Shown here: positions 25,177-57,247 of the stretch, piece after piece
Layout of the letters: each line of letters opens with the position of its first letter
How positions within the stretch are numbered: the first letter of the stretch is position 1
The notes under the pieces: model-generated
The model's input: only the letters and a program-made list of their open reading frames with translations
What the model was told of the DNA's origin: nothing
The model's database searches: none
Position numbers and translations under genes: made by a program
Assembly (NCBI RefSeq): GCF_031583595.1
Contig: NZ_CP134145.1
Span: 4,278,001 to 4,342,000 of the forward strand
Reading direction: 5' to 3'
Length of the DNA: 64,000 bases
Source of the DNA: Thalassotalea psychrophila
Lineage (GTDB): Bacteria > Pseudomonadota > Gammaproteobacteria > Enterobacterales > Alteromonadaceae

Positions 25177-25192
25177 TACCACTAAAGGGGTG
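25177..25192. promoter_or_regulatory. candidate operator dyad upstream of the DgcA-like gene
   Basis: TACCACTAAAGGGGTG has the form TACCnC-N4-GnGGTr. It matches 13 of 16 bases of the dyad at 29138-29153 before the DMGDH-like gene. It lies 86 bp upstream of the start at 25090. It belongs to the proposed LuxR-type operator set. Confidence 0.4.
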
Positions 25193-25261
25193 GAATAGAT
25201 GTAACTAAGGTATTGATTAGTCTATTTTTTGTTATATCAGTAAAGTCATTTATGACGTTGG

Positions 25262-25570
25262 TTAATCTATATCATAATCTATTACAACAATATCGGTAAT
25301 TGGGTGGGATTGACAGGTTAATATCATTCCATCAGCAACTTCTTCATCAGTAAGGTAATGATTTTCATCCATTTTCACCTTACCTTTAATAAGTCTGGCT
25401 TTACAAGTTCCACATACTCCAACCTTGCAGGAAAACGGCAAATCGACCCCTCGATCTATTGCCGCATCGAGAACATTGTCACCATTGGCGGCTAAATCAA
25501 GCGTAGTTTTAATGCCATTAACCTGCACTGATACACAGGAAATTGCTAATGTGAGAAAGTCCTTGTCCAT
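25262..25570 (-). CDS. plant-type [2Fe-2S] ferredoxin
   Basis: The ATG at 25570 gives 102 residues; an upstream in-frame start would overlap the cupin gene. The cluster motif is C48-x4-C53-x2-C56-x29-C86 (FSCKVGVCGTCKARL..LTCQSHP), standard for plant/vertebrate-type ferredoxins and for the reductase domain of Rieske monooxygenases. It starts 7 bp after the stop of the cupin gene, so it is co-transcribed with the DMGDH-like, GFA and cupin genes. It probably carries electrons for one of the neighbouring oxidases or demethylases. No reductase partner is visible next to it. Confidence 0.88.
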   Translation of the reverse strand: MDKDFLTLAISCVSVQVNGIKTTLDLAANGDNVLDAAIDRGVDLPFSCKVGVCGTCKARLIKGKVKMDENHYLTDEEVADGMILTCQSHPITDIVVIDYDID

Positions 25571-25577
25571 ATAATTG

Positions 25578-26111
25578 TTATTCGCCTTTTTTACCGCCCA
25601 TATAGGCAACCCATATTTTACGTACACCACCCTCTGGAACGGCTAATGTTCCAGACCAGCCTTTTGGTAAAACCATGCCCTCGCCCTGAGTAAAGGTTTC
25701 TACGTTTCCTTGTTGATCGGTCATAACCATAGAGCCATCAAGCACGAACATCAATTCATCGTACTCTAAATCTTTATAGGTCATTTTTCCTGGTTTACTT
25801 TCCCATACGCCAAGACCAAAATTTTCATCCTTACTGTAGAAGTACTCATAGCCACGAGCGACTAAATCTCCACTTTCAGGTTCATAGGGTGCATATTCAC
25901 CTAGGTTTTTTCCTTCGAGGCGAGCGCGATCCAAACGGATTAATTGCTTGGAACTGGTTGGCAAAGTTGCTGCATGTACAACTGGGAGAAAAACTTGCTC
26001 GTTATTAGTGAAGTTTCCACTGCTAAAATTACCCAGTATAAACATCAACAGGCTCCAAATAATAAGCCCTGCTACGGTTGTTTTTGTCGGGGATTTTTTA
26101 AATGTTTTCAT
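25578..26111 (-). CDS. membrane-anchored or exported DUF861-type cupin
   Basis: The 177-residue protein starts with a basic segment and a hydrophobic stretch (VAGLIIWSLLMFILGNFSSG, about 14-33), then a cupin_3 (PF05899, DUF861) domain at about 85-175: GVWESKPGKMTY, DELMFVLDGSMVMTD, and GEGMVLPKGWSGTLAVPE. Related cytosolic cupins lie at 39292 and 42601 and share the W-E-x-x-PG motif. (S)-ureidoglycine aminohydrolase and related enzymes belong to this fold, but the metal ligands cannot be assigned with confidence. The export signal is unusual for this family. It lies in the DMGDH-GFA-cupin-ferredoxin run. Confidence 0.75.
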   Translation of the reverse strand: MKTFKKSPTKTTVAGLIIWSLLMFILGNFSSGNFTNNEQVFLPVVHAATLPTSSKQLIRLDRARLEGKNLGEYAPYEPESGDLVARGYEYFYSKDENFGLGVWESKPGKMTYKDLEYDELMFVLDGSMVMTDQQGNVETFTQGEGMVLPKGWSGTLAVPEGGVRKIWVAYMGGKKGE

Positions 26112-26153
26112 AGGTTATCCTCTTGCTTTAAGTTAAATGAATTCCGGGTACTA

Positions 26154-26558
26154 TTAGTATTCTTCCGGAAAAGTATCATGTTGTGGTAAATCATCATTAA
26201 TGTTGTGCCAGGGAGCTTTAGATGCGACAAATATATGGTAACCAGGTGGACATTTTGGATCGCCATCGATGGCACTCATCGATAGATAAAAATCATCCGG
26301 CTCATCACTAAGGGCAACCATAATATTTGAGCCACAAGTTTTACAAAAGATCCGTTGATGAGAAGCTGATGATGCATACGTTGTCAGCTGTTCTTGTCCA
26401 GAAGTATATGAAAAATCGCAACGCCTAACACCGGCAAAAGTAGCATATGCAGCGCCATGAAGTCGTCGACACTGACTGCAATGACAATGACTGAAATCGT
26501 TAATTTCACCATCGACTTGAAACGTTATTTTGTTGCATTCACAGTGACCCGTTATCAT
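26154..26558 (-). CDS. GFA-family (glutathione-dependent formaldehyde-activating-like) protein
   Basis: The 134-residue protein has the zinc-binding pattern of the GFA/CENP-V family (PF04828): C6-x-C8, C25-x-C27-x2-C30 (CHCSQCRR), and C72-x2-C75 (FCKTCGSNI). Gfa was described as binding S-hydroxymethylglutathione, although an enzymatic role is disputed. Its place between a DMGDH-like oxidase and other demethylation genes suggests handling of released formaldehyde. It lies 49 bp downstream of the DMGDH-like gene. Confidence 0.85.
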   Translation of the reverse strand: MITGHCECNKITFQVDGEINDFSHCHCSQCRRLHGAAYATFAGVRRCDFSYTSGQEQLTTYASSASHQRIFCKTCGSNIMVALSDEPDDFYLSMSAIDGDPKCPPGYHIFVASKAPWHNINDDLPQHDTFPEEY

Positions 26559-26607
26559 TTTTGCTCTCCTAGATATATTTCTACTTTTTCGTTTAAAGAC
26601 AAACTAC

Positions 26608-29073
26608 TTAGCATTTTATTCGCTCCATTTTTGGATCAAATAACGGTCGCAATGAAGCTTGTGCCGGATATTTGTTGCCGGCTATCTCTATTTCCCAGCT
26701 ATCATTTTGCACTTCATCGGAGCTGATCAATGGTTGTGACTCAACAAAGCCTAAGCCTACCGACGCTCCTAAAGTAAATCCATAAGCACCAGCACGCATA
26801 TAGCCACAAAACTCGCCATTTCGGTAAATCAATTCTGCATGATGTAACAATGGCTTAGAGTCGTTTAGTTTGAACTGTAATAATCGCCCGCCTAATGTAC
26901 CTTCAGCTTTTTGTTTGGCTAATGCTTTTTGACCAATAAAACCATCGGCTTTATCAAGCTTAACCGCAAAACCCAGACCTGCTTCAAGAGGGGTATCCAT
27001 ATTATCAATATCATGGCCATAATCCCGATAACCTTTTTCTAAACGCAAACTGTTTAGTGCCTGCAAGCCCGCATGTTTCAGATCATAAACTTTACCTGCG
27101 GCCACAATACGGTCATAAACCTGTAAAGCATGCTCGGTTGGAATATAAAGCTCCCAGCCTAGCTCACCAACATAAGTAACTCTGATAGCAATTACGCGAG
27201 CATAATCGATATCGATTTCTTTCGCTGATAAATACGGAAAGGATTCATTACTGACATCTGCATGGGTTAAATCCTCCATTAAACTTCTAGCTTTCGGACC
27301 ATGTAAGTTTATTTGGCTGTAACTTGAGGTGACATCGGTAACAAATGCGTGCGCATTTTTGGCAATGTTTCTGTCCATCCACATTTTCACATGACCATGG
27401 GTGGTATCAGAGCAAATCACCATAAAGGTATCTTTTGTTAAACGGGTGACGGTTAAATCAGCTTCAAGGCCGCCATTTTCATTAACCCATTGAGTATAAA
27501 CAATGCGCCCAGGCTCTACTGCGATATCATTACAACAAATATTGTTCAGCACCTTTTCGGCATCATTACCTTGTACTAAAAACTTTGCCATAAATGACAT
27601 GTCCATCAAGGTCACGTCATTACGACAGGCGTGATGTTCAGCCTCCTGGTATTTAAACCAGTTTTGTCGTCCCCAGCTGTAACGTTCAACTTCGGCTTTT
27701 TCACCTTCAGGGGCAAACCAGTCAGCAAGTTCCCAACCGGCACTTTCAACGAAAAAGGCACCTGCGGCTACAAGCCTTTCATGCAATACCGATTGTTTAA
27801 CATTACGGGCTGAGCTCATACCTAAGTTGGGGTAATGAGACTCGTACATTTTACCAAGTACTTCAACCAGGCGATCATCAAGATATTTAGGATTGCGTTG
27901 GCAAGGGTGAAAACGATTAACATTGAGTGCTGTAACGTCCAGATCAGGGCGGCCATCGACAATCCATTTGGCCAATAATCTACCAATACCACCTGCGGAT
28001 AATATTCCAAGTGAATTAAGGCCACAGGCAACAAAGAAGTTCTGCAGTTCTGAAGTTTCACCGACCAATGGTGACAAATCAGGGGTGAAACTTTCAGGAC
28101 CACAGAAAAACTTACGGATGCCTAATTCGCGAGCAGCAGGTACCCGTTCATAAGCAGCTTCAAGAAACGGTGCCATTCGCTCCCAATCTGGTTCTAGTTC
28201 ACCAAAGATAAAATTTTCTGGGATATGCTGCAAATTCCAAGCTTTGGCTACGGGTTCAAACAGGCCTATCATCAAACTACCAACTTCTTCACGGTAGTAA
28301 GCGTAACTGTCTGGATCTTCTAATACAGGTAAATCTCGGTGCATTCCGTCCATATCATCAGTAATTAAATAATAATGCTCTGCGGCTTGCAGAGGCAAAC
28401 TAACGCCGGCTAATTCACCAAATTGACGAGCCCACATGCCGGCACAATTGACAACATAAGTGGCATCAATATCGCCTAACTCTGTTGTTACCCCGGTAAC
28501 TTTTCCTGCGCATTGTTTAACGCCGGTAACACTTACACCTTCAATAATTTTTGCGCCGCCCATTTTTGCCCCGCGAGCGAGCGACATGGTTAAATCAACA
28601 GGGTTTGCTCGCCCATCTTCAGGGGTATAAAACGCAGCAATAACATCATCAAATTTGGCTTTAGGCCAAAGCTCTTTAGCTTTTTCAACAGAGACTTCCT
28701 GACAATCAATATTACGAGTACGCATAAATGCCGCGCTGCGACGCATTTCTTCCAAACGTTCTTCATTGCAGGCCACTTGCAAATAACCCACTGATTTAAA
28801 GCCCGTTGCTAAACCGGTTTCCTGTTCGAGCCTTGAATATAAATCTCGACCATAGGTAAAAATATCGGCGCTGGTTTCATCGCTTAATAACCCTGAAACA
28901 ATTAGACCTGCCGCATGCCAGGTTGTACCTGAAGTTAGTTGCGCCCGTTCAAGTACAACAACATCGGTATAACCTAACTTGGTAAGGTGATAGGCAACAC
29001 TGCAACCTATGATGCCACCACCAACGATGACAACTTGGGCTTTTTCAGGGAGTGATATATTTTTTGTATTCAT
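26608..29073 (-). CDS. dimethylglycine/sarcosine-dehydrogenase-like flavoprotein with folate-binding domain
   Basis: The ATG at 29073 gives 821 residues. The N-terminal FAD domain (VVIVGGGIIGCSVAYHL, about 14-30) contains GTTWHAAGLI near residue 53; the His of this motif carries covalent FAD in DMGDH and SarDH. A FAO_M linker domain follows. The C-terminal half is a GcvT-type folate-binding region (about 430-800; SYSQINLHGPKARSLME, YVGELGWELYIPTEHA, GLQALNSLRLEKGYRDYGHDID). The enzyme family oxidises an N-methyl group and passes the C1 unit to tetrahydrofolate. It leads the leftward block GFA, cupin, ferredoxin, DgcA-like. The actual methylated amine is unknown. Confidence 0.88.
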   Translation of the reverse strand: MNTKNISLPEKAQVVIVGGGIIGCSVAYHLTKLGYTDVVVLERAQLTSGTTWHAAGLIVSGLLSDETSADIFTYGRDLYSRLEQETGLATGFKSVGYLQVACNEERLEEMRRSAAFMRTRNIDCQEVSVEKAKELWPKAKFDDVIAAFYTPEDGRANPVDLTMSLARGAKMGGAKIIEGVSVTGVKQCAGKVTGVTTELGDIDATYVVNCAGMWARQFGELAGVSLPLQAAEHYYLITDDMDGMHRDLPVLEDPDSYAYYREEVGSLMIGLFEPVAKAWNLQHIPENFIFGELEPDWERMAPFLEAAYERVPAARELGIRKFFCGPESFTPDLSPLVGETSELQNFFVACGLNSLGILSAGGIGRLLAKWIVDGRPDLDVTALNVNRFHPCQRNPKYLDDRLVEVLGKMYESHYPNLGMSSARNVKQSVLHERLVAAGAFFVESAGWELADWFAPEGEKAEVERYSWGRQNWFKYQEAEHHACRNDVTLMDMSFMAKFLVQGNDAEKVLNNICCNDIAVEPGRIVYTQWVNENGGLEADLTVTRLTKDTFMVICSDTTHGHVKMWMDRNIAKNAHAFVTDVTSSYSQINLHGPKARSLMEDLTHADVSNESFPYLSAKEIDIDYARVIAIRVTYVGELGWELYIPTEHALQVYDRIVAAGKVYDLKHAGLQALNSLRLEKGYRDYGHDIDNMDTPLEAGLGFAVKLDKADGFIGQKALAKQKAEGTLGGRLLQFKLNDSKPLLHHAELIYRNGEFCGYMRAGAYGFTLGASVGLGFVESQPLISSDEVQNDSWEIEIAGNKYPAQASLRPLFDPKMERIKC

Positions 29074-29137
29074 CAACGTTCACATATTTTACGGAATTGG
29101 GCATTATCAGTTTGTTTTACTTTTGTAATAAAGCATA

Positions 29138-29153
29138 TACCGCTAAAGTGGTA
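29138..29153. promoter_or_regulatory. candidate operator dyad upstream of the DMGDH-like gene
   Basis: TACCGCTAAAGTGGTA is an almost complete palindrome (ATACC..GGTAT arms) 64 bp upstream of the leftward start at 29073. It is the same type as the dyads at 25177, 31730, 35632, 44821, 56169 and 57232. Confidence 0.5.
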
Positions 29154-29216
29154 TTGTTTAAAAAACCGACAATAATAAGAATGTATTCATTGGTATTAAA
29201 AATAGAGATGCGTGTA

Positions 29217-29672
29217 ATGGATGAGAGATTAAATATTGTTAAAGCAGGGTTGGAAGAGTTAGAGCAAGTAGCAACTCTTTTTGATTTGTATCGCCAGTTT
29301 TATCATCAAGATGCCAACATTGAACTTGCTACAAATTACATTGAACAAAGAATGAAAACCGATTCATCGGTAATTTATCTGGCGCTGGATAAAAACAAGC
29401 AAGCACTAGGCTTTACTCAGCTTTACCCAAGCTTTTGCAGTGTTGATGCAACCCCGATCTGGATTTTATATGATTTGTTTGTTGATAAAAATGCTAGGCA
29501 AAAAGGCGTAGGTAAAGCCCTTATGGCGCAGGCATTACAATTGGCAACCGAAACTGGAGCTTCTCGTATAGATTTAGAAACTGCAATAGACAACAAGCAA
29601 GCGCAAGCCCTGTATGAAGGACTAGGTTATGAACGTGATGATGAATATTATAAATATTGCTTAGAGTTATAA
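29217..29672 (+). CDS. GNAT-family N-acetyltransferase
   Basis: Starting at the ATG at 29217 the product is 151 residues; ATGs at 29208 and 29181 are alternatives, none with a strong ribosome-binding site. The acetyl-CoA loop is seen as LFVDKNARQKGVGKALMAQAL near residue 90-110 (motif A, R/Q-x-x-G-x-G/A), followed by a GASRIDLETAIDNKQAQALYEGLGYE stretch (motif B). It resembles small polyamine or amino-acid N-acetyltransferases; substrate unknown. It is on the plus strand between two leftward operons, and its end overlaps the glutamine amidotransferase gene by 6 bp. Confidence 0.88.
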   Translation: MDERLNIVKAGLEELEQVATLFDLYRQFYHQDANIELATNYIEQRMKTDSSVIYLALDKNKQALGFTQLYPSFCSVDATPIWILYDLFVDKNARQKGVGKALMAQALQLATETGASRIDLETAIDNKQAQALYEGLGYERDDEYYKYCLEL

Positions 29673-30374
29673 ACTTACAGTTTTAAGCCAGCGAATATAA
29701 AGCTGTTCGGCAATTTGGTTTAACGCTCTCACATTTTCAACTACCGGTTTTAACATTTGCTCACCGTTTTGCTCAGAGCTGCTGGTTTTATTTAGATGGT
29801 GCTGATGCCTCTCTACCCAGTCTCGAAGTAATGGTTCAGTGATCTCTACATGGCATTGCATTGCCAGTACGTTATCACCATAGCTATATGCCTGATTTTT
29901 GCAGAACTCTGAAGAAAATAATGGTTTACCCTCCGGCGGAATGGTAAATGTTTCATTATGCCAATGAAACATCATAAATGTATCGGGGATATTCGTTAAC
30001 CAGTCACTGCTATTCTCATCAATTCGAAAACATGGATGCCAACCTAGTTCATCTACTGAATTTTTAACCACTTTTTGGCCTAATGCTTTGCTGATCAATT
30101 GCCCACCTAAACAGTGGCCAAGAATTGGTATGCCAGAACTTAAAGCTTGTTTGATCAAATTTATTTCGGTGCTGACCCAGTCAATATCATCATTAACGCT
30201 CATGCTACCGCCCATAAATACCAGGCCAGCAATCGAGTCATCGAGCTGTGGAATTATTTCATCTTTATAACTGTGTATAAGACGATATGGGATACTTCTA
30301 TGTTGTAAAAACTTTTCAAAGTAACCTGGTGCATCCTCTTCAGTATGCATAAAAATTAATACTTCTTTGCTCAT
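29667..30374 (-). CDS. class I glutamine amidotransferase (stand-alone)
   Basis: The 235-residue protein has the triad glutaminase signature: nucleophile C88 in GHCLGGQ, and H175-x-E177 in MQCHVEIT. It resembles the free-standing GMP-synthase-like amidotransferases (PF00117). Members of this group include gamma-glutamyl hydrolases of polyamine breakdown and GlxB-type subunits; the nucleophile elbow GHCLGG fits the GMPS-like group rather than PuuD (peptidase C26). It lies 27 bp downstream of the MFS gene. In this setting it might hydrolyse a gamma-glutamyl intermediate or donate ammonia, which is inference. Confidence 0.8.
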   Translation of the reverse strand: MSKEVLIFMHTEEDAPGYFEKFLQHRSIPYRLIHSYKDEIIPQLDDSIAGLVFMGGSMSVNDDIDWVSTEINLIKQALSSGIPILGHCLGGQLISKALGQKVVKNSVDELGWHPCFRIDENSSDWLTNIPDTFMMFHWHNETFTIPPEGKPLFSSEFCKNQAYSYGDNVLAMQCHVEITEPLLRDWVERHQHHLNKTSSSEQNGEQMLKPVVENVRALNQIAEQLYIRWLKTVSL

Positions 30375-30401
30375 TATTTTTCCTACAACTAAAGCAACTA
30401 C

Positions 30402-31601
30402 TTAATTGGGCACTGGCACCAACGATTTTCTACGATGCATATAAAGGAATATACCAACATATAAACCCATTGCGATAATCGCCATACTGCCTGACACGAC
30501 AAACATTGTACTGTAACCAAAGCCAGCACCTAAAATAGACGCTGAAATATTGGGACCAACAAATTGCCCAAAACCCTGTACGCTTGGCATCAAGGCAATT
30601 AAAGAGCCTTTTCTATCCATATGAGCCATCATAGCTGATTGATAAACATCAACAAAGGTCCATAAGGTCATAAAACCAAAAAGACTGACCATTACGTTCA
30701 TGTCGGTTATACCAACACTGAGCATGGCGACTATGGCAAACATCGCTAAAAGTGAGATAAATAACGGTTTAAACAAGCCAAACCTTGAACAGATCAAAGC
30801 AAGAAAACAACCAACAATAGCAAAAATTGAAGACCAAGTTAACACTGGACCAATCCAATCTTCAGCCACACCATCGGCATGGGCAGCTAGTTCTATATAG
30901 GTGTAATAACCACCAATATTGACATAGGTAAACCCTACTGCAACCAAGCATAAAATCGGTAATATGCGCGGTACACGCCAATCTTCAACATCATTTTCTT
31001 CAGATTGTTGAATGGCCAGTTCTTCAGTATTTAATCCTCTATTTGGTAACCAGGGGATCATTGCCACACACATAATATTTAGAGCTATAAAGAACAGGTA
31101 AATCCCCTCTATAGACAGTTGCGGTAACGTATGTAATTCCAGAGCGGTGGAAAAAGCAAAGGCGAACAATAAGTAATTAAAGGCTTTAACCGGTTTTGTT
31201 GTGCCGCCTAAAGTAACGATAGCGATAGAAGTAAACATACCGCTGCCAAACCCTGCAGCAAGGCGAAGCCATAACACTTGTTCGTATTCAACCAAAGGGA
31301 TACATAAACCATTAGCAGCCATTGAGATAGCCAAGCCGATAAATACCAGCACCCGGCGTTGCATTCTGGCGACAAAAAATGATGCCACTATGGCGCCAAT
31401 TGAAAAACCACCAAGGTCGGCGCCAGCAACTCGACCAACCTGTTCTTCGGTAAATCCCAACATGCCCACCCAAGCAGTACTAAGAACAGGGACACTAACC
31501 ATTACAGAATACCCCACTAAGGCTAATACTAGGGCAGTTGATATAGATCGCCATCCATCGAAGATGTTATTCCACTGGGTTGAAGCTGTGCTAGTCGTCA
31601 T
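30402..31601 (-). CDS. MFS transporter
   Basis: The 399-residue protein has twelve predicted membrane spans, with a longer cytosolic loop after span 6 (LNTEELAIQQSEENDVEDW). A degenerate MFS loop-2/3 signature is seen near GADLGGFSIGAIVASFFVARMQRRVLV. No subfamily can be named with confidence. It is first of a two-gene leftward unit with the glutamine amidotransferase and shares its upstream region with the divergent SnoaL-AraC regulator, around a strong dyad. It probably carries the pathway substrate or a breakdown product. Confidence 0.85.
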   Translation of the reverse strand: MTTSTASTQWNNIFDGWRSISTALVLALVGYSVMVSVPVLSTAWVGMLGFTEEQVGRVAGADLGGFSIGAIVASFFVARMQRRVLVFIGLAISMAANGLCIPLVEYEQVLWLRLAAGFGSGMFTSIAIVTLGGTTKPVKAFNYLLFAFAFSTALELHTLPQLSIEGIYLFFIALNIMCVAMIPWLPNRGLNTEELAIQQSEENDVEDWRVPRILPILCLVAVGFTYVNIGGYYTYIELAAHADGVAEDWIGPVLTWSSIFAIVGCFLALICSRFGLFKPLFISLLAMFAIVAMLSVGITDMNVMVSLFGFMTLWTFVDVYQSAMMAHMDRKGSLIALMPSVQGFGQFVGPNISASILGAGFGYSTMFVVSGSMAIIAMGLYVGIFLYMHRRKSLVPVPN

Positions 31602-31717
31602 AGTTAACCTTAATTTTGATGTTTATTTTAATTATTATTTATCAATTACTTAAATGGAAACTGTTGGTTCATAATGTGTTATTTCTATGCTGCATATTTC
31701 AGTGTAATAAAAAACCT

Positions 31718-31758
31718 ACTCTGAGTATCTACCCCTATGGGGTATTACTACTCAGAGT
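31718..31758. promoter_or_regulatory. nested operator dyads between MFS and SnoaL-AraC genes
   Basis: The outer arms ACTCTGAGTA (31718-31727) and TACTCAGAGT (31749-31758) are a perfect 10-bp inverted repeat. Inside lies TACCCCTATGGGGTA (31730-31744), the best example of the recurring TACCCC-N3-GGGGTA dyad. It is 74 bp from the regulator start and about 116 bp from the MFS start. Two proteins may bind here, the LuxR-type regulator and the adjacent AraC-type one. Confidence 0.65.
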
Positions 31759-31818: not shown

Positions 31819-32595
31819 ATGCAAAACAAACAACTTTTACAATCAGTAAATAATTACTTTCAGGCGTGGAATAACGCTGATGCAAAAGCTGTTGCCGCCT
31901 TTTTTAGTGAAGATGCGGTGTATATAGACACGGCACAAAACAAAGAATATCGAGGCAAAGAGATTGAGCAATATATCGCCAGAACTGTTGCCGGTACTGC
32001 ACAAAAGATAGAATTTTCAATTGTCCAGCAGCCGGTGATCAATGGCGATGTTGTTTTTTTACAATCATCATTAAAAATTAAATCAGCGCAAGAAAGTCAA
32101 CACCTAGAAAGTGCGGAATTGATCAAATTTAGTCATGGTAAAATCAGCATGCTGCAGACTTATTATAATTTAGATCAAGACATTACAGCACCAGCGCTTG
32201 AAAAAGATAAATACGCAAAGTCTGGGTTAGATCAAGCCCAAACTAAAGTTATCAAAACCAAGCTTGAAGCCATCATGGCACAACAAGAGCCGTTTCGAGA
32301 TTCATCATTAAAACTGCAAGACTTAACCGAAATGCTAGATATCCGTCGTAATCATTTATCACAGATATTAAATAATGAGTATCAGATGAAATTTTTTGAT
32401 TTCATCAATCATTATCGCTTACAGGCATTTTTAAAATCATTACACAACTGCGATTCAAGTGAGGTCAACATCACTGAACTTGCCTATGAAGCCGGTTTTA
32501 GTTCATCATCCGTTTTTTATAAAATATTTAAACGCTATCAAGAAATATCCCCAAGCCAATACCTTAAAAATATTCAACAAAGTGAAATAAAATAA
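31819..32595 (+). CDS. SnoaL-like / AraC-type fusion regulator
   Basis: The 258-residue protein joins an N-terminal SnoaL/NTF2-like cone (about 1-120; YFQAWNNADAKAVAAFFSEDAVYID, LQSSLKIKSAQESQHLESAELIKFSHGKI) to a C-terminal AraC-type DNA-binding domain (about 150-250). The latter shows LTEMLDIRRNHLSQILNNEYQMKFFDFINHYRL and ITELAYEAGFSSSSVFYKIFKRYQEISPSQYL. The family usually has a cupin or other sensor, so a SnoaL sensor is uncommon. The cone probably binds a small pathway compound. It is divergent from the MFS gene with a large dyad between, which suggests autoregulation and local control. Confidence 0.85.
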   Translation: MQNKQLLQSVNNYFQAWNNADAKAVAAFFSEDAVYIDTAQNKEYRGKEIEQYIARTVAGTAQKIEFSIVQQPVINGDVVFLQSSLKIKSAQESQHLESAELIKFSHGKISMLQTYYNLDQDITAPALEKDKYAKSGLDQAQTKVIKTKLEAIMAQQEPFRDSSLKLQDLTEMLDIRRNHLSQILNNEYQMKFFDFINHYRLQAFLKSLHNCDSSEVNITELAYEAGFSSSSVFYKIFKRYQEISPSQYLKNIQQSEIK

Positions 32596-35631: not shown

Positions 35632-35647
35632 TTCCCCGTTTGGGGTA
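35632..35647. promoter_or_regulatory. candidate operator dyad upstream of the symporter gene
   Basis: TTCCCCGTTTGGGGTA follows the TxCCCC-N4-GGGGTA pattern. It lies 99 bp upstream of the SSS symporter start, inside the 134-bp gap after the GcvT-like gene, so it may drive an internal promoter of the rightward block. Confidence 0.5.
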
Positions 35648-35746
35648 TACCCAGCTGATATTGAATTAATTAGTCTAATTTTTAATGGTTAAAAAAATAA
35701 CCTGATGTGAATGTTAAATAGTCAACCTGGGTGAGACCTCGAACAT

Positions 35747-37525: not shown

Positions 37526-37639
37526 AGCATAATTTCTCTGCGGATACGCGCGATAGCATAAGAGTTTTAGAGGTTATAAGGTAGTAACTTAAATCTAAAA
37601 GAATAATAATTATTGAAACTTTAAACTTGGACAGCTTTT

Positions 37640-39232: not shown

Positions 39233-39291
39233 GCATAAATATATAAAAAATTTAATAAACATAAAAATAAACACGTACGAGGACAAAAGCT

Positions 39292-42945: not shown

Positions 42946-42953
42946 TCCCGTAG

Positions 42954-44820: not shown

Positions 44821-44835
44821 TACCCCATGGGGGTA
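44821..44835. promoter_or_regulatory. candidate operator dyad upstream of the TonB-dependent receptor
   Basis: TACCCCATGGGGGTA is a near-perfect copy of the core dyad at 31730-31744 (13 of 15 bases). It lies 113 bp upstream of the receptor start, in the 177-bp gap after the sulfotransferase gene. Confidence 0.6.
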
Positions 44836-44948
44836 TACAATTTGTTCAGTTCATTGGCTAATGTTAAATGAAAAGCTAAAAAAATTGTGTCAGCATTGTG
44901 CAGTTATTTAGCCGAAATAATAATACTAATAAAAACTCGAGGTAAATA

Positions 44949-49936: not shown

Positions 49937-50533
49937 TTATCTGCTTTGGTTTAATTGATTGGTCACCCACAATGGTGGCTGATAAACTTCTACAATAACT
50001 TCGTCATTAACACAAATTTTACCTGCGACTTCAATAACACCAACTAGACCTCGAGTAAATATGGCCGCTTGTGAAAATGTATTTTTTGCTAATGGCTCTC
50101 CTGAATTACAGGTGAAAGCCGCGGCAATTTTCTCACTCATTTCCGAGCATGGAGGGTTGTACTCTTCAACCATGAGCTGCGCCCCTGATGAGAATTTTAA
50201 GATTGTTCCCTTTGGTAATAACGATAACTTAGGGATTCCCTTAAAGCACAGGTTAACACTTAGGTCAGCCGCCGTAAGTTGCCTGGTTAAGTCCATGCGC
50301 TCACTGATACTTTCCAGTTCTTCCACAGACATGGCTGACCATTGTCTTTCGTTACGCCTCTCGGTTCCTTGTGCTTGTTTATCACCCGCCCAAGTTTCTC
50401 TTGATATTGAACGGTGCCTGTCGCCAACAAAACCATCTAATTCAGCCTGCACCGAATCACAGCTATGCTTGGATAACTCTTCATCTTTAGTGCCAATATT
50501 CACTTCGACGACGTGACCTATAAGCTTATTCAT
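49937..50533 (-). CDS. MOSC-domain protein
   Basis: The 198-residue protein has the MOSC fold (PF03473) signs: GFVGDRHRSISR near 35, RQWSAMSVEELESI near 63, LTAADLSVNLCFKGIPKLSLLPKGTIL near 87, and the Cys-containing YNPPCSEM near 125, whose Cys is the usual sulfur/Mo-cofactor-interacting residue. MOSC proteins take part in molybdenum-cofactor sulfuration or in metabolite reduction such as YiiM. It is last in the leftward GcvT/PYROXD2 run, 38 bp after the GcvT-like gene, so it could serve that pathway, for instance on a hydroxylated amine. Confidence 0.78.
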   Translation of the reverse strand: MNKLIGHVVEVNIGTKDEELSKHSCDSVQAELDGFVGDRHRSISRETWAGDKQAQGTERRNERQWSAMSVEELESISERMDLTRQLTAADLSVNLCFKGIPKLSLLPKGTILKFSSGAQLMVEEYNPPCSEMSEKIAAAFTCNSGEPLAKNTFSQAAIFTRGLVGVIEVAGKICVNDEVIVEVYQPPLWVTNQLNQSR

Positions 50534-50571
50534 GCTGATTCCTTTCGTTGATTTGTTAATACGTTGCTTTG

Positions 50572-51801
50572 TTAATACTTTAATGGCGGAGTGATTTTTG
50601 CCCGCTCAGGAGTCCAAAATGGCTTTTTCACTACAGTACATTTCATCACTATGTGGTGATGGCGTAATTCTTTGGTGTAGTATATTTCAGCCCAGATATC
50701 GCCCTTTAAATACTTAGTTTCTATCATAGCCAGAGCGATATTGGCTTTTACAATTGGCGACCACATGGTTGAGGTAATATAGCCGATATGAGTGTCGCAC
50801 TTTTTATTGTTATAAAGGTAGGCTTCCTCCGCAGATTTGTTGCCTTCAATATCAAGTTTAATCAAAGTGTATTCTGGGCCCTGCTGCTTTTCTTTGAGCA
50901 AGGCTTTACGACCATTAAAATGTGGCTTTTTGAAATCGACCAACCAGCCTAAACTTAACTGAAATGGTGTGTGGTCGTATTGAAAGTGTACGGTTTTTAA
51001 TGCTTCGTTAAACTCAAGTCCAGGCATAATAAAGCCAGCTTCAAGACGCGCCATATTAGTGGCAACTTCACCATAAGGATGAATATTATAATCTTCTCCG
51101 GCGCTATAGAGAGTATCCCAAAGATCAAGGGCTAACTCTGGCGCTATCCAAAGCTCATAACCTAAATCGCCAGTAAAACCGGTGCGAGAGACCATTAAGG
51201 TTTTACTATCATCACCATTAAAAGGAAAGTGCATAATTCCAAATGGTTTTAGAGTTTCTATGCCATCAAGCCCCATTTTTTTCAATACTTCACAACTGGT
51301 AGGCCCTTGAAAAGATAAGGCGGCAATATTGTCAGACATATCTGTTATGGTTACATCACTAAAGCCAAAAGCACTTTTTTTAAACCAGGCAACACAAGGA
51401 CTGCCACAGGTTAACATGAAAGAATCAGGCCCCAGTCTAAAGATAGCACCATCGTCTATCATTCGACCTTCATCAGTACACCAACAACAGTAGGTTACCC
51501 TGTCTACGTTTAATTTTGCCACATCACGAGTGACCATGCGGTTCAGCATCGCCTCAGCATCTTTACCAGAAATGTAGTATTTTTGCATTGGGCAAATATC
51601 GTAGGTTGCACAACTGTTGCGTATACAAAAATATTCATATTCGGCATCATAATAACTATTGGCAAACTTGAAACCATTCCATACAGTCCAATCGTCACGT
51701 ACATTAAGCGCTTGTTGGCGAGGGTGAAACGGAGTCTGTCTTAATTGTTCATCGAGTTGTGTAACACTCATTTCATTGTGAGATTTCATAGTAGTATTCA
51801 T
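50572..51801 (-). CDS. stand-alone GcvT-like aminomethyltransferase (copy 2)
   Basis: The ATG at 51801, 7 bp past the previous stop, gives 409 residues. GcvT-fold motifs are YDICPMQKYYISG near 65, GRMIDDGAIFRLG near 113 (folate-binding Asp position), GFTGDLGYELWIAP near 210 and NMARLEAGFIMPGLEFN near 248. It shares the NSYYDAEYEY-type opening and overall layout with copy 1 at 34416 but is clearly divergent. It is coupled to PYROXD2-like copies 3 and 4, giving the same pairing of flavoenzyme and folate protein seen in the rightward block. Confidence 0.82.
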   Translation of the reverse strand: MNTTMKSHNEMSVTQLDEQLRQTPFHPRQQALNVRDDWTVWNGFKFANSYYDAEYEYFCIRNSCATYDICPMQKYYISGKDAEAMLNRMVTRDVAKLNVDRVTYCCWCTDEGRMIDDGAIFRLGPDSFMLTCGSPCVAWFKKSAFGFSDVTITDMSDNIAALSFQGPTSCEVLKKMGLDGIETLKPFGIMHFPFNGDDSKTLMVSRTGFTGDLGYELWIAPELALDLWDTLYSAGEDYNIHPYGEVATNMARLEAGFIMPGLEFNEALKTVHFQYDHTPFQLSLGWLVDFKKPHFNGRKALLKEKQQGPEYTLIKLDIEGNKSAEEAYLYNNKKCDTHIGYITSTMWSPIVKANIALAMIETKYLKGDIWAEIYYTKELRHHHIVMKCTVVKKPFWTPERAKITPPLKY

Positions 51802-51807
51802 CTGCAA

Positions 51808-53430
51808 TTACTCATCATAAAAAGAATCTTCAGGAACCGTATTTGGTTTCTTCAAATCCATCAATATTTCACGTGCCGCATTTGCGCCACAAGCTGCAGA
51901 CACCCCACCGCCAGGATGAGTTGATGCACCGCACATATACATATTCTTGATTGGCATTCGGTATTGGCCGTACCCGGGAAACGGTCGATTGAAAAACAGT
52001 TGATCGATAGTTAGTTCGCCTTGGAAAATATTGCCTTCGGTTAATCCAACCTCTCCTTCTATTTCTACCGGGGTTCTGATCTCTTTATGAACAATTAAGT
52101 CTTTAAAACCAGGACTGTAACGTTCTATTTTATCAATAACCGTTTGCCCAAACGCTTCTTTTTGCTGGGCATTCCAACCACCTCCGGCCAGTGTAGGAGG
52201 ACAATATTGGACGAAACACGACATCCAATGTTTGCCCGGAGGAGCAACCGTAGGATCCCAAGCTGAAGGAATGATTGTTTCAACAAAAGGGTCATCTGAA
52301 AATCGATTATGCTTCCAACAATCATAGGCACGCTCCATCGTCTCCAGTGAACCAACAAAACCTTGTCCACCCCGATTGATAAAGCGATTATCAGGCAGGT
52401 TAATAAATTTAGGTAAACCAGATAAAGCAATGTTTACCTTACCTGACGAGCCACGGATTTTAAAATTCTCGGCTTTTTTATAAATTCCTTCAGGTAAATC
52501 TTTTTTATCCAGACATTTGGTAAAGGTACGTTTGGCATCTAAGTTTGAAACTACAATATCGGCGTAAAGATCATCACCGTTTTCCAGTACTACACCGATG
52601 GCTTTGCCATTTTCGACCAATATTTTATCAACACCAGCACCAGTTCTAATTTCACCGCCAAATGATTTAAACGCACTGGCGATAGCATTAGAAATTGCTC
52701 CCATGCCGCCTCGGGCTAAACCCCAAGCGCCAATGTTACCATCCATATCACCCATAACATGATGCAATAGAATATAGGCAGACCCTGGTGAGTAAACCCC
52801 CAGTGCTGTACCTATAATGCCCGGGCTGGCCATAGTTGCCTTGATCAGATCGTTTTCAAAATAATCATCTAAAAATTCTTCCGCACTGGTGGTGAAAAAA
52901 CGCATGTATTCATAAAGCTCTTTCTCACCTAACGACCAGAACTGTTTTGCCAACCACAGCAACTCTTGAATATCGCGAGGTTTAAATGAGGTTGGATCTG
53001 GCGGCGTACGCATCAAAGTTTTGCGAATAAGTTGCGCATAGCGGCTTAAATCCGCCTGAAAACGAAACATTGAATCGGCATCGTGGGCAGAATGTTTACG
53101 CAAGTGGTTGTAAGCTACATCACCATTGCCGTAATGAATTAATGGCTGACCTTTGTCATCATAGTTAACAGTACCAATGTATGGAACAAGTACTAGTCCA
53201 TGCTTGGTCAGGTTAAGATCTCGATGCACAGTTTGGCGAAGCATACTCGACATATAAGAGCAGCTTGAATATAGCCAGCCATCGTGCATTTCACGAGAAA
53301 CTGCGGCGCCGCCGATATAGTCATTTTTTTCCAGTACCAAAACATTAAGGCCGGCTTTAGCTAAGTAGGCGCCATTGGTTAAACCGTTATGCCCTGCACC
53401 AATAATAATAGCGTCGTATTTCTTATTCAT
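51808..53430 (-). CDS. PYROXD2-like FAD oxidoreductase (copy 3)
   Basis: The 540-residue protein has AIIIGAGHNGLTNGAYL near 7-23, GGAAVSREM near 42, GARGGMGAISNAIA-like stretch near 235 and the C-terminal signature MYMCGASTHPGGGVSAACGANAARE. The Gly-His-Asn of the other copies' second signature is here Gly-Ala-Asn. Its start lies only 1 bp after the stop of copy 4 (53432) and its stop 7 bp before the GcvT-like start, so translation is probably coupled. Substrate unknown. Confidence 0.85.
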   Translation of the reverse strand: MNKKYDAIIIGAGHNGLTNGAYLAKAGLNVLVLEKNDYIGGAAVSREMHDGWLYSSCSYMSSMLRQTVHRDLNLTKHGLVLVPYIGTVNYDDKGQPLIHYGNGDVAYNHLRKHSAHDADSMFRFQADLSRYAQLIRKTLMRTPPDPTSFKPRDIQELLWLAKQFWSLGEKELYEYMRFFTTSAEEFLDDYFENDLIKATMASPGIIGTALGVYSPGSAYILLHHVMGDMDGNIGAWGLARGGMGAISNAIASAFKSFGGEIRTGAGVDKILVENGKAIGVVLENGDDLYADIVVSNLDAKRTFTKCLDKKDLPEGIYKKAENFKIRGSSGKVNIALSGLPKFINLPDNRFINRGGQGFVGSLETMERAYDCWKHNRFSDDPFVETIIPSAWDPTVAPPGKHWMSCFVQYCPPTLAGGGWNAQQKEAFGQTVIDKIERYSPGFKDLIVHKEIRTPVEIEGEVGLTEGNIFQGELTIDQLFFNRPFPGYGQYRMPIKNMYMCGASTHPGGGVSAACGANAAREILMDLKKPNTVPEDSFYDE

Positions 53431-53431
53431 A

Positions 53432-54988
53432 TTATTTACTCGCCTTAATTATTTCATTTGCTGCGTTGTGGCCAGGACCACCAATTAGGCCACCACCAGG
53501 ATGACTACCTGCTCCACAAAGGTAGAGTCCAGGAATAGGGGTACTGTATTGTGCTGCTTCGTAAGTTGGTCGCATCATCAACATTTGTGATATTGATAAT
53601 TCAGTGTGATGCCAATGGCCACCGGTAACATTAAATTGCTGTTCTAAATCTAATGGTGTGAGTATTTCGCCATCGATAATTTTTTCTCGAATATCGGGTG
53701 CATATTCAGCGATAGTATCGATAACACGTTCATATAGATCAGCCTTAGCTTGCTCAGTCCAACCATTCTTATGTTTATACGGTACATACATAACATGGGC
53801 AGAAAGTACGTGTTGGCCGCTTGGTGCAAGCTCTGGATTATGCAAACTTGGGATGACTATTTCCATTACTGGTTTTTGTGAAGGCTCGCCATATTTTGCA
53901 TCGTCAAAAGCGAATTCAATGCTGTCTAGTTCATCGGCAATAATCATTCGACCATCAGGTTTCGTTAAACCGGTAAAGTTGGGTAAATCAGACAAGGCCA
54001 GGTGCAATTTAGCGACATAGCCATCACAGCGTAAACGATTAATTCTGCTAGTAAAATCAATTTCAAGGTGTTGCGGACCAACGAGATCTAAAAATGTTCG
54101 TTTAGGGTCAACAGCCGAAACAACTCTATCAGCGCTAATTATTTCGCCAGATTGTAATTCTACGCCATTAGCTTTTAGACCCGTTTCATCGGCTTGAATT
54201 AATATTTGTTTTACTTTTGAGTTGGTTTGTACTTCAACGCCAGCTTTAGTTGCTGCTTTGTGCAGTGAGTTTATTAGGCTTGCGATACCGCCACTAGGCA
54301 GTGAATGAGCACCATCATGTAGGCCGCTCATGCGATATAGTAACGCTAAAATAGTAGCATTGGGCGAGCGAGGTGCCATTTTTGAACCAATTAATCCGTC
54401 CCAACTTAGCAATGCCTTAAGCTGATCAGAGTCAAAATTTTCATCCATCAGGTCACGCGCAGGTAATGTTGCCACCCGCATAAATTCGGCCATATCCTGT
54501 TTGCCAAGCATACGCATTTTTATACCAAGGTGAGCAAAGGTTAAATTATCCTTGATACTTGGGCTGCCTATACGTGGCATAGTTTTAAGCCAGAACGGTT
54601 TCAACAAATTAGCAAATCGTTTTAACAATTGCTGATATTGTTGATAGTTTTGTTGATCTTCTGACCCTACTCCGGTTATTTCACCCGATGAGGTTAACGT
54701 GACATGATTACCTTCTTTATTTAGCGAAATGTTCGTCATAGGCGCTGCGGCTACGTCAAAACCGTGTGCAGATAAATTAAGCTCTTTCGCCACCTTAGTT
54801 GAAAAATGGCTGATGGTTTGAGCAACAGAGGCGTTAAACCCAGGGGAAAACTCACGAGTTGCAGCCAAGCCGCCAAGCTGCTCTGCGGCTTCAAGTATTA
54901 ACACCTTTTGCCCGTTCTTACCCAGGTAAGAACCACAGACTAAGCCATTGTGGCCTGCACCTATTATTATCGTATCGAAGTGATTCAA
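53432..54988 (-). CDS. PYROXD2-like FAD oxidoreductase (copy 4)
   Basis: The 518-residue protein has TIIIGAGHNGLVCGSYLG near 6-23, GGLAATREFSPGFNASVAQT near 40 and LYLCGAGSHPGGGLIGGPGHNAANE near the C-terminus. It is the most divergent of the four copies. It precedes copy 3 by one base and follows the membrane protein gene at 55054 by 65 bp. Four enzymes of one family in 22 kb is unusual. Confidence 0.85.
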   Translation of the reverse strand: MNHFDTIIIGAGHNGLVCGSYLGKNGQKVLILEAAEQLGGLAATREFSPGFNASVAQTISHFSTKVAKELNLSAHGFDVAAAPMTNISLNKEGNHVTLTSSGEITGVGSEDQQNYQQYQQLLKRFANLLKPFWLKTMPRIGSPSIKDNLTFAHLGIKMRMLGKQDMAEFMRVATLPARDLMDENFDSDQLKALLSWDGLIGSKMAPRSPNATILALLYRMSGLHDGAHSLPSGGIASLINSLHKAATKAGVEVQTNSKVKQILIQADETGLKANGVELQSGEIISADRVVSAVDPKRTFLDLVGPQHLEIDFTSRINRLRCDGYVAKLHLALSDLPNFTGLTKPDGRMIIADELDSIEFAFDDAKYGEPSQKPVMEIVIPSLHNPELAPSGQHVLSAHVMYVPYKHKNGWTEQAKADLYERVIDTIAEYAPDIREKIIDGEILTPLDLEQQFNVTGGHWHHTELSISQMLMMRPTYEAAQYSTPIPGLYLCGAGSHPGGGLIGGPGHNAANEIIKASK

Positions 54989-55053
54989 ATCATACTCACA
55001 TAGTTATTGTTAACGGTAAATTTTTTATTATTAAACTAAAGTCTCAGCAAAAA

Positions 55054-55929
55054 TTAGCCAGAAACAGTGTTTTGCTTTTCATTATTTTCAGCCTCAATGA
55101 TTTCATCACGCCATTGAGACATATTCATTTCTATTACAAAAAATCCGGAGATCCAAACAAACTCATCCCAGGCAAACATCCAGTGCTCAAGGTCTAACCA
55201 AAAAACGATAATGGCCCATAAAATCAAGTAAAACATAAGCTTGATAATTTTAAGTACTTTGAGTTTTGTACCGGTTGCTATTCCTCTGTCTTGAATACGT
55301 ACAGTTAATTCCATGGTTAACAATATAATTAACCAAGCAACAACCTCGATAACATCAGCCCAAGCCAAATTTATTTCGATATTTAGACCGGCACTGTCAG
55401 AGACAATAATATTCTCTGGAGCGTCGAGATAATAAAATTGGCTGGCAGTTGAAAGTATTTGGCAGTTAGTAGTATTTAGCTCGGTATAGACAAGGTTATA
55501 AGCATAGGAAACATCAGCAGCAACTAACTGACAAAGGTTGGTTGCATTGCTAATAACATCAACGTTACTTAAATCAATAAGGTAGTCGGTATATGCATAA
55601 AGAGTATGAGCTAGAGAAACATAACAAATGATCCTAACAGCATGCATTAATAACGCTTTAGCGCGAGGAAGTGGTTCATCTGATAATATGTAGGTTTCAA
55701 GTTCGAATAAAATTAATAGGCAAATCCAGGCACTTTCATCAATGGTAGTAGCGAAGGCTCCAGTCCAATCCAAAAATGAACCACCATTGCGCATGGTATG
55801 TGATGCTATAACCCAGTCATTCTTAAAATATATAGCAAAATTAATGAGCAGCAGGCCATAGACTATGACTTTAATCCATAATCGTACGTCTACTTTTGAA
55901 GAATTTGGTATAAAAGTTGATAAATTCAT
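55054..55929 (-). CDS. integral membrane protein of unknown function
   Basis: The 291-residue protein has about six membrane spans (about 19-37, 64-80, 92-113, 185-205, 228-248 and 253-270) and a periplasmic or cytosolic loop of about 65 residues (NVDVISNATNLCQLVAADVSYAY..). Acidic and Trp residues (FWLDLEHWMFAWDEFVW) cluster near the last spans. I recognise no family. It is the first gene of the leftward PYROXD2-GcvT-MOSC run, so it may serve that pathway, for example as a transporter or redox anchor. The candidate operator lies 239 bp upstream with a mobile repeat in between. Confidence 0.65.
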   Translation of the reverse strand: MNLSTFIPNSSKVDVRLWIKVIVYGLLLINFAIYFKNDWVIASHTMRNGGSFLDWTGAFATTIDESAWICLLILFELETYILSDEPLPRAKALLMHAVRIICYVSLAHTLYAYTDYLIDLSNVDVISNATNLCQLVAADVSYAYNLVYTELNTTNCQILSTASQFYYLDAPENIIVSDSAGLNIEINLAWADVIEVVAWLIILLTMELTVRIQDRGIATGTKLKVLKIIKLMFYLILWAIIVFWLDLEHWMFAWDEFVWISGFFVIEMNMSQWRDEIIEAENNEKQNTVSG

Positions 55930-55963
55930 TAATCAAACAGGTATAAAAACCGCTCATGTTGAG

Positions 55964-56123
55964 ATACCAATTTCATTAAATTATTGCTCACTTGTGCTGG
56001 TTAAAATACCTCAAAGCGTCGTTGCTCTCAATCCCAATAGCCAGCTATTGGTCAATCGATCGCCTTGCCTTGATTTATTTTTTCCTGCGCACAACAAGAT
56101 CACAAACTTAATGCAACTGGTAT
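55964..56123. repeat. ATACCA-ended palindromic element (MITE-like), 160 bp
   Basis: The left end ATACCAATTTCATTAAATT and the inverse of the right end ATACCAGTTGCATTAAGTT match, as do inner arms CACTTGTGCTGG and the inverse of CCTGCGCACAACAAG. The centre is CCAATAGCCAGCTATTGG. It lies between the candidate operator at 56169 and the membrane-protein start at 55929. The remainder of the 55930-56294 gap holds no gene. Confidence 0.8.
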
Positions 56124-56168
56124 AAATCTGTATCTTATGATTAAAACCAATAATCAGCAGATAAGACA

Positions 56169-56183
56169 TACCCCTTTGAGGTA
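56169..56183. promoter_or_regulatory. candidate operator dyad upstream of the membrane-protein/PYROXD2 operon
   Basis: TACCCCTTTGAGGTA follows the core 15-bp pattern (TACCCC-N3-GnGGTA). It is 239 bp from the start at 55929, but 79 bp if the 160-bp ATACCA element is removed, which fits the 55-115 bp spacing of the other sites. Confidence 0.5.
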
Positions 56184-56294
56184 GTTTCAACCCAGTAAAA
56201 AAGCTCCAATCAAAAGTAACCTATTGATAAATTGGTGTATTTTGAATTAATGAGAATTTTCGAGGTAATAAAAGAAGGCAATTTACCTATCGAT

Positions 56295-57158
56295 TTATTG
56301 GCTGGCTCGATGATGACAAGCTGGCGTATGATAGGCAATAAGCGGGTCACCACTGGTATAGTTTTCAATATTCATTAAAGAATTAATAAATAAATTAAAC
56401 AACTCTCCCTGAGTACCAAGATCGAGTTTGGCGTAGGCATTTTTACGATGAAGTTTTATTGTTTCTACCGAAATATTCAAGCGTTCAGCAATAGCCTTGC
56501 TTGAATAACCCTGCAGGATCATTTTAATCGTTTGGTTTTCTCGTTCGGTTAGAACACTGGTACCAAATGCGTCGAGTGCAGTTTCTAACTGTTCACGAAT
56601 ATCAAGATGATGCTCATGGCTATGCTCAATAGTTTGCCAATGATGCTTTATTAGCGCTTCGATTAATGGCGTTATTTCTTTCAGTTGTTGTAAGGCTTCA
56701 TTGCTAAAACAGCTGCCATCTTCAACTTTGCCAAGACCAACCATTACAAATTTATCACCCTCATCTGCCACTTTAATTAAATAAACACATTCATCGGTGA
56801 GACAAGAGTAATTATAATAACTTTTAAAATATTCACTTTCCTCAAATCCATCTGGAGCAACATCTTTAAGATGTAAAAACTGACTTTCCTTATCCTGCTT
56901 TGATGCTAAGTAGAATGGGTCAAGTAAAAAGGCACCTTTGAGATATTGATCGGCAACCGATTCTAGGCTTCCGCTTGGAACATCATTATATTCTATAATG
57001 GGCAATTTTTTACTGGGAAACAAAATTATCATGATGTTTTCAGCGGCTATGAGGCGCTTAAACATGTCGGCAAGCTTAACAGTAAATTCTTCGGTTCCGG
57101 CATAGGGAAATAAATCTGCAAGTTGTTGAGAAAACTCGGAAAGAAATGACGTACTCAT
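56295..57158 (-). CDS. LuxR/NarL-type transcriptional regulator
   Basis: The 287-residue protein ends in a GerE-type helix-turn-helix (about 203-262; LTERENQTIKMILQGYSSKAIAERLNISVETIKLHRKNAYAKL). The N-terminal about 190 residues have no receiver Asp pattern and no clear acyl-homoserine-lactone-binding signature, so they are probably a small-molecule or PAS/GAF-like sensor. It is divergent from the aldehyde dehydrogenase with a dyad between. GerE/NarL-type domains are known to bind TAC-Y-Y-M-T half-sites; the recurring TACCCC dyads of this cluster fit that. I infer it is the cluster regulator. Confidence 0.85.
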   Translation of the reverse strand: MSTSFLSEFSQQLADLFPYAGTEEFTVKLADMFKRLIAAENIMIILFPSKKLPIIEYNDVPSGSLESVADQYLKGAFLLDPFYLASKQDKESQFLHLKDVAPDGFEESEYFKSYYNYSCLTDECVYLIKVADEGDKFVMVGLGKVEDGSCFSNEALQQLKEITPLIEALIKHHWQTIEHSHEHHLDIREQLETALDAFGTSVLTERENQTIKMILQGYSSKAIAERLNISVETIKLHRKNAYAKLDLGTQGELFNLFINSLMNIENYTSGDPLIAYHTPACHHRASQ

Positions 57159-57231
57159 GATTTAACTACTTAATGAAAACACTAATAAAAATATACCACC
57201 ATTAACTCGCATTTAACAAGAGATAAAAGCA

Positions 57232-57247
57232 CTCCCCTATTGGGTTA
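57232..57247. promoter_or_regulatory. candidate operator between luxR-type and aldehyde dehydrogenase genes
   Basis: CTCCCCTATTGGGTTA is a weaker form of the dyad (CCCC-N4-GGG core). It lies 73 bp from the LuxR-type start and 98 bp from the aldehyde dehydrogenase ATG, as expected for autoregulation and divergent control. Confidence 0.4.

Follow-up and report, generated by a model that had tools for sequence, protein, structure and literature searches.

A putative LuxR-type regulon for amine catabolism in Thalassotalea psychrophila: a recurrent promoter dyad and its candidate VqsR-like regulator

Most operons of a catabolic gene cluster of Thalassotalea psychrophila are preceded by the same short inverted repeat, which raises the question of whether these operons are controlled together, and by which protein. 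The cluster lies in a stretch of 64,000 nucleotides (positions 4,278,001–4,342,000 of contig NZ_CP134145.1, assembly GCF_031583595.1), hereafter called the window, and includes the gene of a LuxR-type protein with a VqsR-like sensor domain. An initial annotation, made from the letters alone, had proposed that this protein controls the operons as one regulon. Our results support this proposal, since the dyad is conserved at orthologous promoters and co-occurs with the regulator gene over 395 genomes. Further support comes from the pattern-only recovery of three orthologous promoters and from a motif found de novo near distant homologues. Judging from these sequence comparisons, we consider it quite likely that the cluster's own VqsR-like LuxR-type protein acts at the dyads as a class II activator of an amine-catabolism regulon.

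Operator dyads and their conservation

The reference motif is TACCCC-N3/4-GGGGTA, a dyad of 15 bp (N3) or 16 bp (N4). All seven dyads and the half-site listed by the initial annotation are present where it had placed them (Table 1). Its formula, TACCnC...GnGGTA, describes five of the seven dyads, whereas those at 35632 and 57232 fall outside the strict form. The site at 57232 is also located 73 bp upstream of the LuxR-type gene itself. The regulon had been thought to extend over 32 kb; the operons concerned are included, but it appears to reach further, to a site just beyond the window at window coordinate 69698 (genome 4347698), which precedes a second DAO-GcvT gene by 64 bp. With this site, the putative regulon spans about 44.5 kb and eight or nine transcription units.

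Table 1. Putative operators and other features of the window (positions in window coordinates).
Feature	Position	Strand	Details
Operator, OYE/FadH-like flavoenzyme gene (23030-25090, -)	25177-25192	-	CACCCCTTTAGTGGTA on the minus strand; -10 TATACT at 25148-25153
Operator, divergent: dimethylglycine (DMG)-dehydrogenase-like gene (26608-29076, -) and GNAT gene (about 29208-29672, +)	29138-29153	-	TACCGCTAAAGTGGTA
Operator, MFS-glutamine amidotransferase operon (29667-31601, -); SnoaL-AraC gene divergent on the plus strand	31730-31744	-	Perfect site; -10 TACACT at 31701-31706
Operator, Na+/solute symporter (SSS) operon (35747-44771, +)	35632-35647	+	TTCCCCGTTTGGGGTA; -10 TAGTCT at 35671-35676
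Operator, TonB-dependent receptor gene (44949-47498, +)	44821-44835	+	Perfect site; -10 TAATGT at 44859-44864
Operator, membrane-like gene (55054-55929) and amine oxidase-GcvT-MOSC operon (49937-55929, -)	56169-56183	-	TACCTCAAAGGGGTA on the minus strand; hexamer TTTAAT at 56140-56145
Operator, aldehyde dehydrogenase-MATE operon (57340-60143, +)	57232-57247	+	CTCCCCTATTGGGTTA; -10 TAATAT at 57271-57276
Degenerate operator, class III aminotransferase gene (61495-62904, +)	61444-61458	+	CACACTATAGGGGTA; hexamer TAATAC at 61481-61486, one base off phase
VqsR-like LuxR-type regulator, 287 aa	56295-57158	-	Sensor domain about residues 3-178; GerE helix-turn-helix (HTH) 201-248
Dispersed repeat resembling a miniature inverted-repeat transposable element (MITE), in the leader between the -10 and the gene at 55054-55929; outside the regulon	55960-56130		About 160 bp

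A chance origin of the dyads was rejected on the basis of permuted half-sites, conservation and genome counts. The half-site TACCCC was compared with its 29 other letter permutations and, for genome counts, the motif with its reversed pattern. Noncoding DNA of the window contained four matches with at most one mismatch, against a permutation mean of 0.0, and five with at most two mismatches, against a mean of 0.14. The whole 4.8-Mb genome has 11 sites (8 N3 and 3 N4) with at most one mismatch, of which four are intergenic sites of the cluster. A check for the motif outside the cluster, which the initial annotation had called for, covered all seven close matches elsewhere, each of which lies within a mechanically called open reading frame (ORF); loose N3 matches are not enriched genome-wide. 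Both perfect N3 sites of the genome belong to the cluster, as do three of the six sites of the strict form TACCNCN3GNGGTA (two sites in the reversed control). For N4, matches with at most two mismatches were modestly enriched (82 versus 52 in the reversed control). Of the 12 own-genome sites outside the cluster whose context was checked, 10 lie inside ORFs and two are intergenic. The latter, at genome positions 4419532 and 4415398, precede a sulfatase-like gene (recognized by eye) and a gene without assignment, respectively.

The dyad is kept before corresponding genes in orthologous clusters, a comparison that had likewise been suggested. LuxR-type orthologues with 59–70% identity are found in five genomes of the family (G040, G352, G093, G061 and G052), and proteins of about 44% identity in five more genomes and at a second locus in G061; at E ≤ 1e-45, matches occur in 11 of the 395 genomes of the family, counting the window's own. 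The dyad precedes the gene corresponding to 55054-55929 in all five orthologous clusters and the TonB receptor gene in G040, G052, G061 and G352, and it stands between the aldehyde dehydrogenase and LuxR genes in G040, G052 and G093, with a weaker form in G352. It also precedes DAO-GcvT genes in G040 and G352, GFA genes in G052 and G061, and the aminotransferase gene in G040 (weakly in G352), while G040 is the sole orthologous cluster where it was seen before the SSS gene. The site at 69698 has a near-identical counterpart before the G040 orthologue and a related one in G352. The five orthologous clusters together contain 25 noncoding matches with at most two mismatches, where the 29 permuted half-sites give 1.2 on average and at most 6 (a shifted relative); inside ORFs there were 10, against a mean of 7.6. 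The group of about 44% identity has the dyad before its TonB receptor gene, mostly as CCCCTATAGGGG.

The dyad and the regulator gene are inherited together. An exact dyad followed by N23 and TAnnnT occurs at 8 places (7 dyads) in only 4 of the 395 genomes, and these 4 are among the 6 genomes with a 59–100% identical LuxR-type protein, against 0 of the 389 others (Fisher 1.5e-8, taking the genomes as independent, which they are not). On contigs new to the comparison, the pattern alone gave one hit each in G040, G093 and G352, every one of them preceding an orthologue of the MFS gene (76–79% identical).

Promoter geometry

A site was kept if it lay outside the interior of an ORF and had a start codon 30–260 bp downstream; it was then oriented to the gene and entered as a row, a divergent site giving two rows. 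Offset 23 denotes a TAnnnT hexamer starting 24 nt after the dyad. In the related set (six clusters, window included), most sites have a -10 hexamer in this phase: 18 of 27 distinct sites, or 19 of 38 rows, and 15 of 32 rows without the window. At distant loci, it was found in 20 of 59 rows (20 of 46 sites). The background per offset is 3.9% in the related and 2.0% in the distant set; the binomial probabilities (3e-17 and 1e-19, respectively, uncorrected for the 54 offsets and for relatedness) are indicative only, because the sequences are related and not independent. No other offset reaches 15% of the rows in either set. In the genome of T. psychrophila itself, the composite of dyad, N23 and TAnnnT occurs without mismatch at 31730 and 44821 only. 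Site 31730 lies between two genes, but a phased -10 is present only for the minus-strand MFS gene, 128 bp away, and this geometry assigns the site to that gene.

The initial annotation had suggested that the two spacings may mark two subclasses. This was not supported, since N3 and N4 sites of the related set share the same distance to the -10 (offset 23 in 12 of 24 N3 rows and 7 of 14 N4 rows), which argues against such a division. The N3 rows of the distant set show the same offset clearly (17 of 39). At phased sites, mismatches were more numerous in the distal than in the proximal half-site in the related set (32 versus 8; 27 rows) and in the 44% group (9 versus 0; 5 rows). We do not claim a stronger promoter-proximal half-site as a general rule, as it is absent from the distant set (10 versus 12; 20 rows).

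Assigning the hexamer to -12 to -7 places the end of the dyad at -36 and its centre at about -43. The latter is near the lux box centre of -42.5 given in PMC3376562. An operator that abuts the -35 position at a fixed distance from the -10 characterizes class II activator-dependent promoters, and by sequence the promoters described here would belong to this type.

Site 56169 had been regarded as the exception among the dyads, with no cluster gene at the usual distance. This is not so, as it is located 239 bp upstream of the gene at 55054-55929, with a dispersed repeat inside the leader that explains the larger distance. The equivalent site in the five relatives is 65–79 bp upstream of the called start, with the hexamer TTTAAT in G040, G352, G052 and G061 and TTAAAT in G093. 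Both operator 56169 and its -10 lie upstream of the repeat and look intact. The repeat has 22 matches in the genome, itself included, with 9 other near-full-length copies of 85–93% identity; its ends appear inverted by eye. The gene behind this leader encodes a 291-aa membrane-like protein without a Pfam or NCBIfam match, and adjoins the regulator gene in the window and in all five orthologous clusters. A look-alike of this protein, recognized by eye, is encoded at G000:C1:4422278-4423120, about 11 kb from a second LuxR paralogue.

The regulator, its distant homologues and rival binders

The regulator combines a C-terminal GerE HTH (PF00196, E 3.8e-14), which also matches NarL (1je8, E 2.2e-6), with a VqsR-type sensor domain (24% identity to VqsR in this domain). 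Pfam showed no receiver domain, and PF03472 gave no match in this protein (E ≤ 0.001) or in two homologues (E ≤ 0.01); the sensor fold is nevertheless of the PF03472 autoinducer-binding superfamily. VqsR is an orphan LuxR-type protein of Pseudomonas aeruginosa, whereas the gene described here sits in a catabolic cluster that it apparently controls. The VqsR operator, TCGCC-N8-GGCGA, is unlike our dyad. Differences from LuxR proteins of the acyl-homoserine lactone type include the lack of a PF03472 match, a dyad of 15–16 bp instead of the 20-bp lux box, and no autoinducer-synthase family among the annotated neighbours. LuxR solos are defined by PF03472 without a neighbouring PF00765, according to PMC10134790. 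Here the domain is not matched, and no LuxI-type gene is present among the genes annotated at 23030-62904 (a genome-wide LuxI search had a control that matched in no genome). PipR-type LuxR solos respond to an ethanolamine derivative, a nitrogenous compound, as stated in PMC10134790 and PMC7683790; PipR is accompanied by a proline iminopeptidase gene, and none is annotated here. The second LuxR-type paralogue, at G000:C1:4434359-4435102 (L014, L026), is 37% identical, has His where the regulator has L236, and is accompanied by aminotransferase, aldehyde dehydrogenase, TonB receptor and MFS genes of its own.

When named genomes were scanned with an alignment of 11 sequences, 129 loci emerged, of which 80 were kept, from Colwelliaceae, Marinomonas, Halieaceae, Porticoccaceae/SAR92 and others. 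Five of these (L085-L087, L121 and L122) repeat G040, G352, G093, G378 and G103 and were left out of the distant row set, although L121 and L122 were included in the 46 loci searched de novo. Among inverted repeats in the noncoding DNA of these 46 loci, TACCCC with a gap of 3 was the commonest, in 14 loci against a maximum of 3 in shuffles that preserved base composition only. Residue 241 is Ala or Val at 49 distant loci. A promoter site with at most two mismatches is present at 30 of these, 18 of which also have a phased -10. The 20 distant phased rows precede TonB receptor homologues in 15 cases (36–42% identical to the window's), an alanine dehydrogenase-like gene in 3, an agmatinase gene in 1 and an MFS-type gene in 1. 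The distant targets, including the agmatinase locus L089, point to amine or polyamine catabolism as their common theme. In L089 (1830-3784), dyads flank a gamma-glutamyl-gamma-aminobutyrate hydrolase-like gene, below the curated cut-off, and precede the agmatinase gene. The alanine dehydrogenase-like gene follows dyad and -10 in Halieaceae loci L111 (2360 and 2445-3560), L109 (3323) and L112 (493), and was confirmed by hidden Markov model (HMM) in L111, the one of the three that was checked. Such an enzyme could recycle alanine from a pyruvate-using aminotransferase.

Two candidate negative controls were set aside. Seven stretches around distant LuxR paralogues were not used as a clean negative, with 6 noncoding sites at up to two mismatches against a mean of 1.24 and a maximum of 5 for permuted half-sites. 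Nor was the clade with Ser at residue 241 (26 loci within L124-L164, SAR92/Porticoccaceae-type) used as a specificity control. Its commonest inverted repeats are mostly AT-rich, and no TonB-receptor homologue (E ≤ 1e-12, >100 residues) was found within the stretch examined at any of the 26 loci, so that the targets of this clade may lie elsewhere. A noncoding dyad was seen at one locus of this clade, L150, which is also the only S241 locus with an aminotransferase homologue nearby; under the promoter-row rule, L149 also gives one row.

Several observations weigh against the dyad standing out from chance or against control of the cluster by its own LuxR-type protein. In-ORF matches with at most two mismatches are also in excess in the window (7 versus a permutation mean of 1.6), including site 29138, which is covered by an over-long ORF call, while N3 matches at this level are not enriched genome-wide (46 places versus 56 in the reversed control). 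We conclude from this that loose matches outside promoters are not to be trusted. A good phased -10 is lacking at 29138, where the phased hexamer on the minus strand is a weak CAAACT (29109-29114), and at 61444, and the TAATGT of site 69698 comes one base late. Offset 23 is found in 3 of 20 distant N4 rows, where another offset has 4, and in 5 of 18 rows of the 44% clusters, where offset 14 has 7. With one mismatch allowed, the composite occurs in 6 of 6 orthologue genomes, 0 of 5 of the 44% group and 36 of 384 others; as the reversed pattern also matches in many genomes, such matches are background. The 80 loci were selected through their LuxR gene, which is therefore present by design, and 19 of the 49 distant A/V241 loci have no site within the stretch examined, as is the case for a noncoding dyad at 25 of the 26 S241 loci. 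Finally, the 16-bp form coincides exactly with an engineered Escherichia coli NarL 7-2-7 site, so another NarL-type regulator could read the dyad.

This last point leads to the question of whether a NarL/NarP-type two-component response regulator, instead of the cluster's LuxR-type protein, binds the sites. N4 sites fit the inverted heptamers 7-2-7 of NarL, and PMC4549865 gives both the engineered site TACCCCTAAAGGGGTA and natural 7-2-7 sites at similar promoter positions (-40 to -49 at napF and -38 to -47 at yeaR). However, the commonest form here is N3, that is 7-1-7; the targets belong to amine catabolism and not to nitrate respiration; and the exact N3 composite is confined to genomes with the LuxR orthologue (4 of 6 versus 0 of 389). 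We therefore find a NarL-type binder improbable. Alternatively, the LuxR-type protein might bind the dyad but mainly repress, with the substrate relieving repression. A protein bound to the dyad, right next to the -35, could also stand in the way of polymerase, and the sign of regulation is not readable from sequence. Yet a constant distance from dyad to -10, as seen in two sets, fits contact activation and is not needed for repression, and the first six bases past the dyad, at the place of the -35, are not TTGACA-like in the window promoters. Repression as the main mode thus seems unlikely.

Two further candidates concern other proteins. The product of 31819-32595, in which a SnoaL-like domain is fused to an AraC-type HTH, is encoded divergently from operator 31730, and its gene recurs in the same divergon at the MFS hits of G040, G093 and G352, hence in at least 4 of the 6 orthologue genomes. 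It was not found (E ≤ 1e-20), however, in the partial stretches of 28 other loci with dyad and phased -10, including 80 kb of G052 and 114 kb of G061, although in three of those genomes it lies on another contig. A perfect 15-bp dyad is also atypical of AraC proteins, which makes this protein a very improbable binder. A formaldehyde- or metal-responsive CsoR/FrmR repressor could in principle read the C-tract and G-tract of the dyad, as demethylation can release formaldehyde and operators of this family contain C and G runs. But the genome has no PF02583 match, in a search whose control matched in 6 of 14 genomes, and we disfavour this explanation as scarcely credible.

Cluster content and proposed role

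Annotation with HMMs found an OYE-type flavoenzyme, a 2Fe-2S protein, cupins, a GFA-type protein, MFS and SSS transporters, a glutamine amidotransferase, four CrtO/amine-oxidase-type FAD proteins, two free GcvT-type proteins, PurU, a TPR-sulfotransferase, the TonB-dependent receptor, an aldehyde dehydrogenase, a MATE protein and the class III aminotransferase. The match of the DAO-GcvT fusion to dimethylglycine dehydrogenases covers almost the entire protein (E 1e-131). The cluster looks like a pathway for uptake and oxidative N-demethylation of an amine, with disposal of formyl-tetrahydrofolate, and its substrate would belong to the methylated amines or polyamines. Beyond the window, coordinates 69731-74839 (L081) hold genes for an FAD amine oxidase-like protein, an MMSDH-type aldehyde dehydrogenase and an omega-aminotransferase (AptA equivalog), adjoining a LysR-type gene.

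For the proposed activation by the LuxR-type protein, a VqsR-like dimer would bind the dyad directly upstream of the -35 position and, as a class II activator, recruit RNA polymerase there. The window would hold seven or eight such sites, and one more would lie just beyond it. This would co-induce uptake (TonB receptor, SSS and MFS), folate-linked oxidative N-demethylation (DMG-dehydrogenase-like, GcvT-like and PurU proteins) and amine oxidation (aminotransferase and aldehyde dehydrogenase). The inducer is probably a methylated amine, a polyamine or a breakdown product. No title or abstract opening in the literature seen on LuxR proteins with this dyad, or on LuxR, TonB receptors and polyamines, describes such an operator or regulon.

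More tentatively, and with somewhat less than even confidence, we suggest that this VqsR-fold LuxR-type family serves marine Gammaproteobacteria as catabolic sensors of amines or polyamines and not of quorum signals, coupling uptake by TonB receptors to folate-linked demethylation. The family may have taken over the NarL half-site or converged on it, and may tolerate both 7-1-7 and 7-2-7 because only the promoter-proximal half-site needs to be in register with polymerase.

Our results would thus assign an operator, a promoter geometry and a set of targets to a LuxR-type family for which the VqsR sensor domain is the nearest relative of solved structure that was found. They also offer a natural test of how NarL-like recognition helices may read one half-site at two spacings. 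As the putatively regulated genes indicate the kind of compound that is taken up and degraded, the inducer can be sought directly, and a fusion to the TonB-receptor promoter would be a ready reporter for it.

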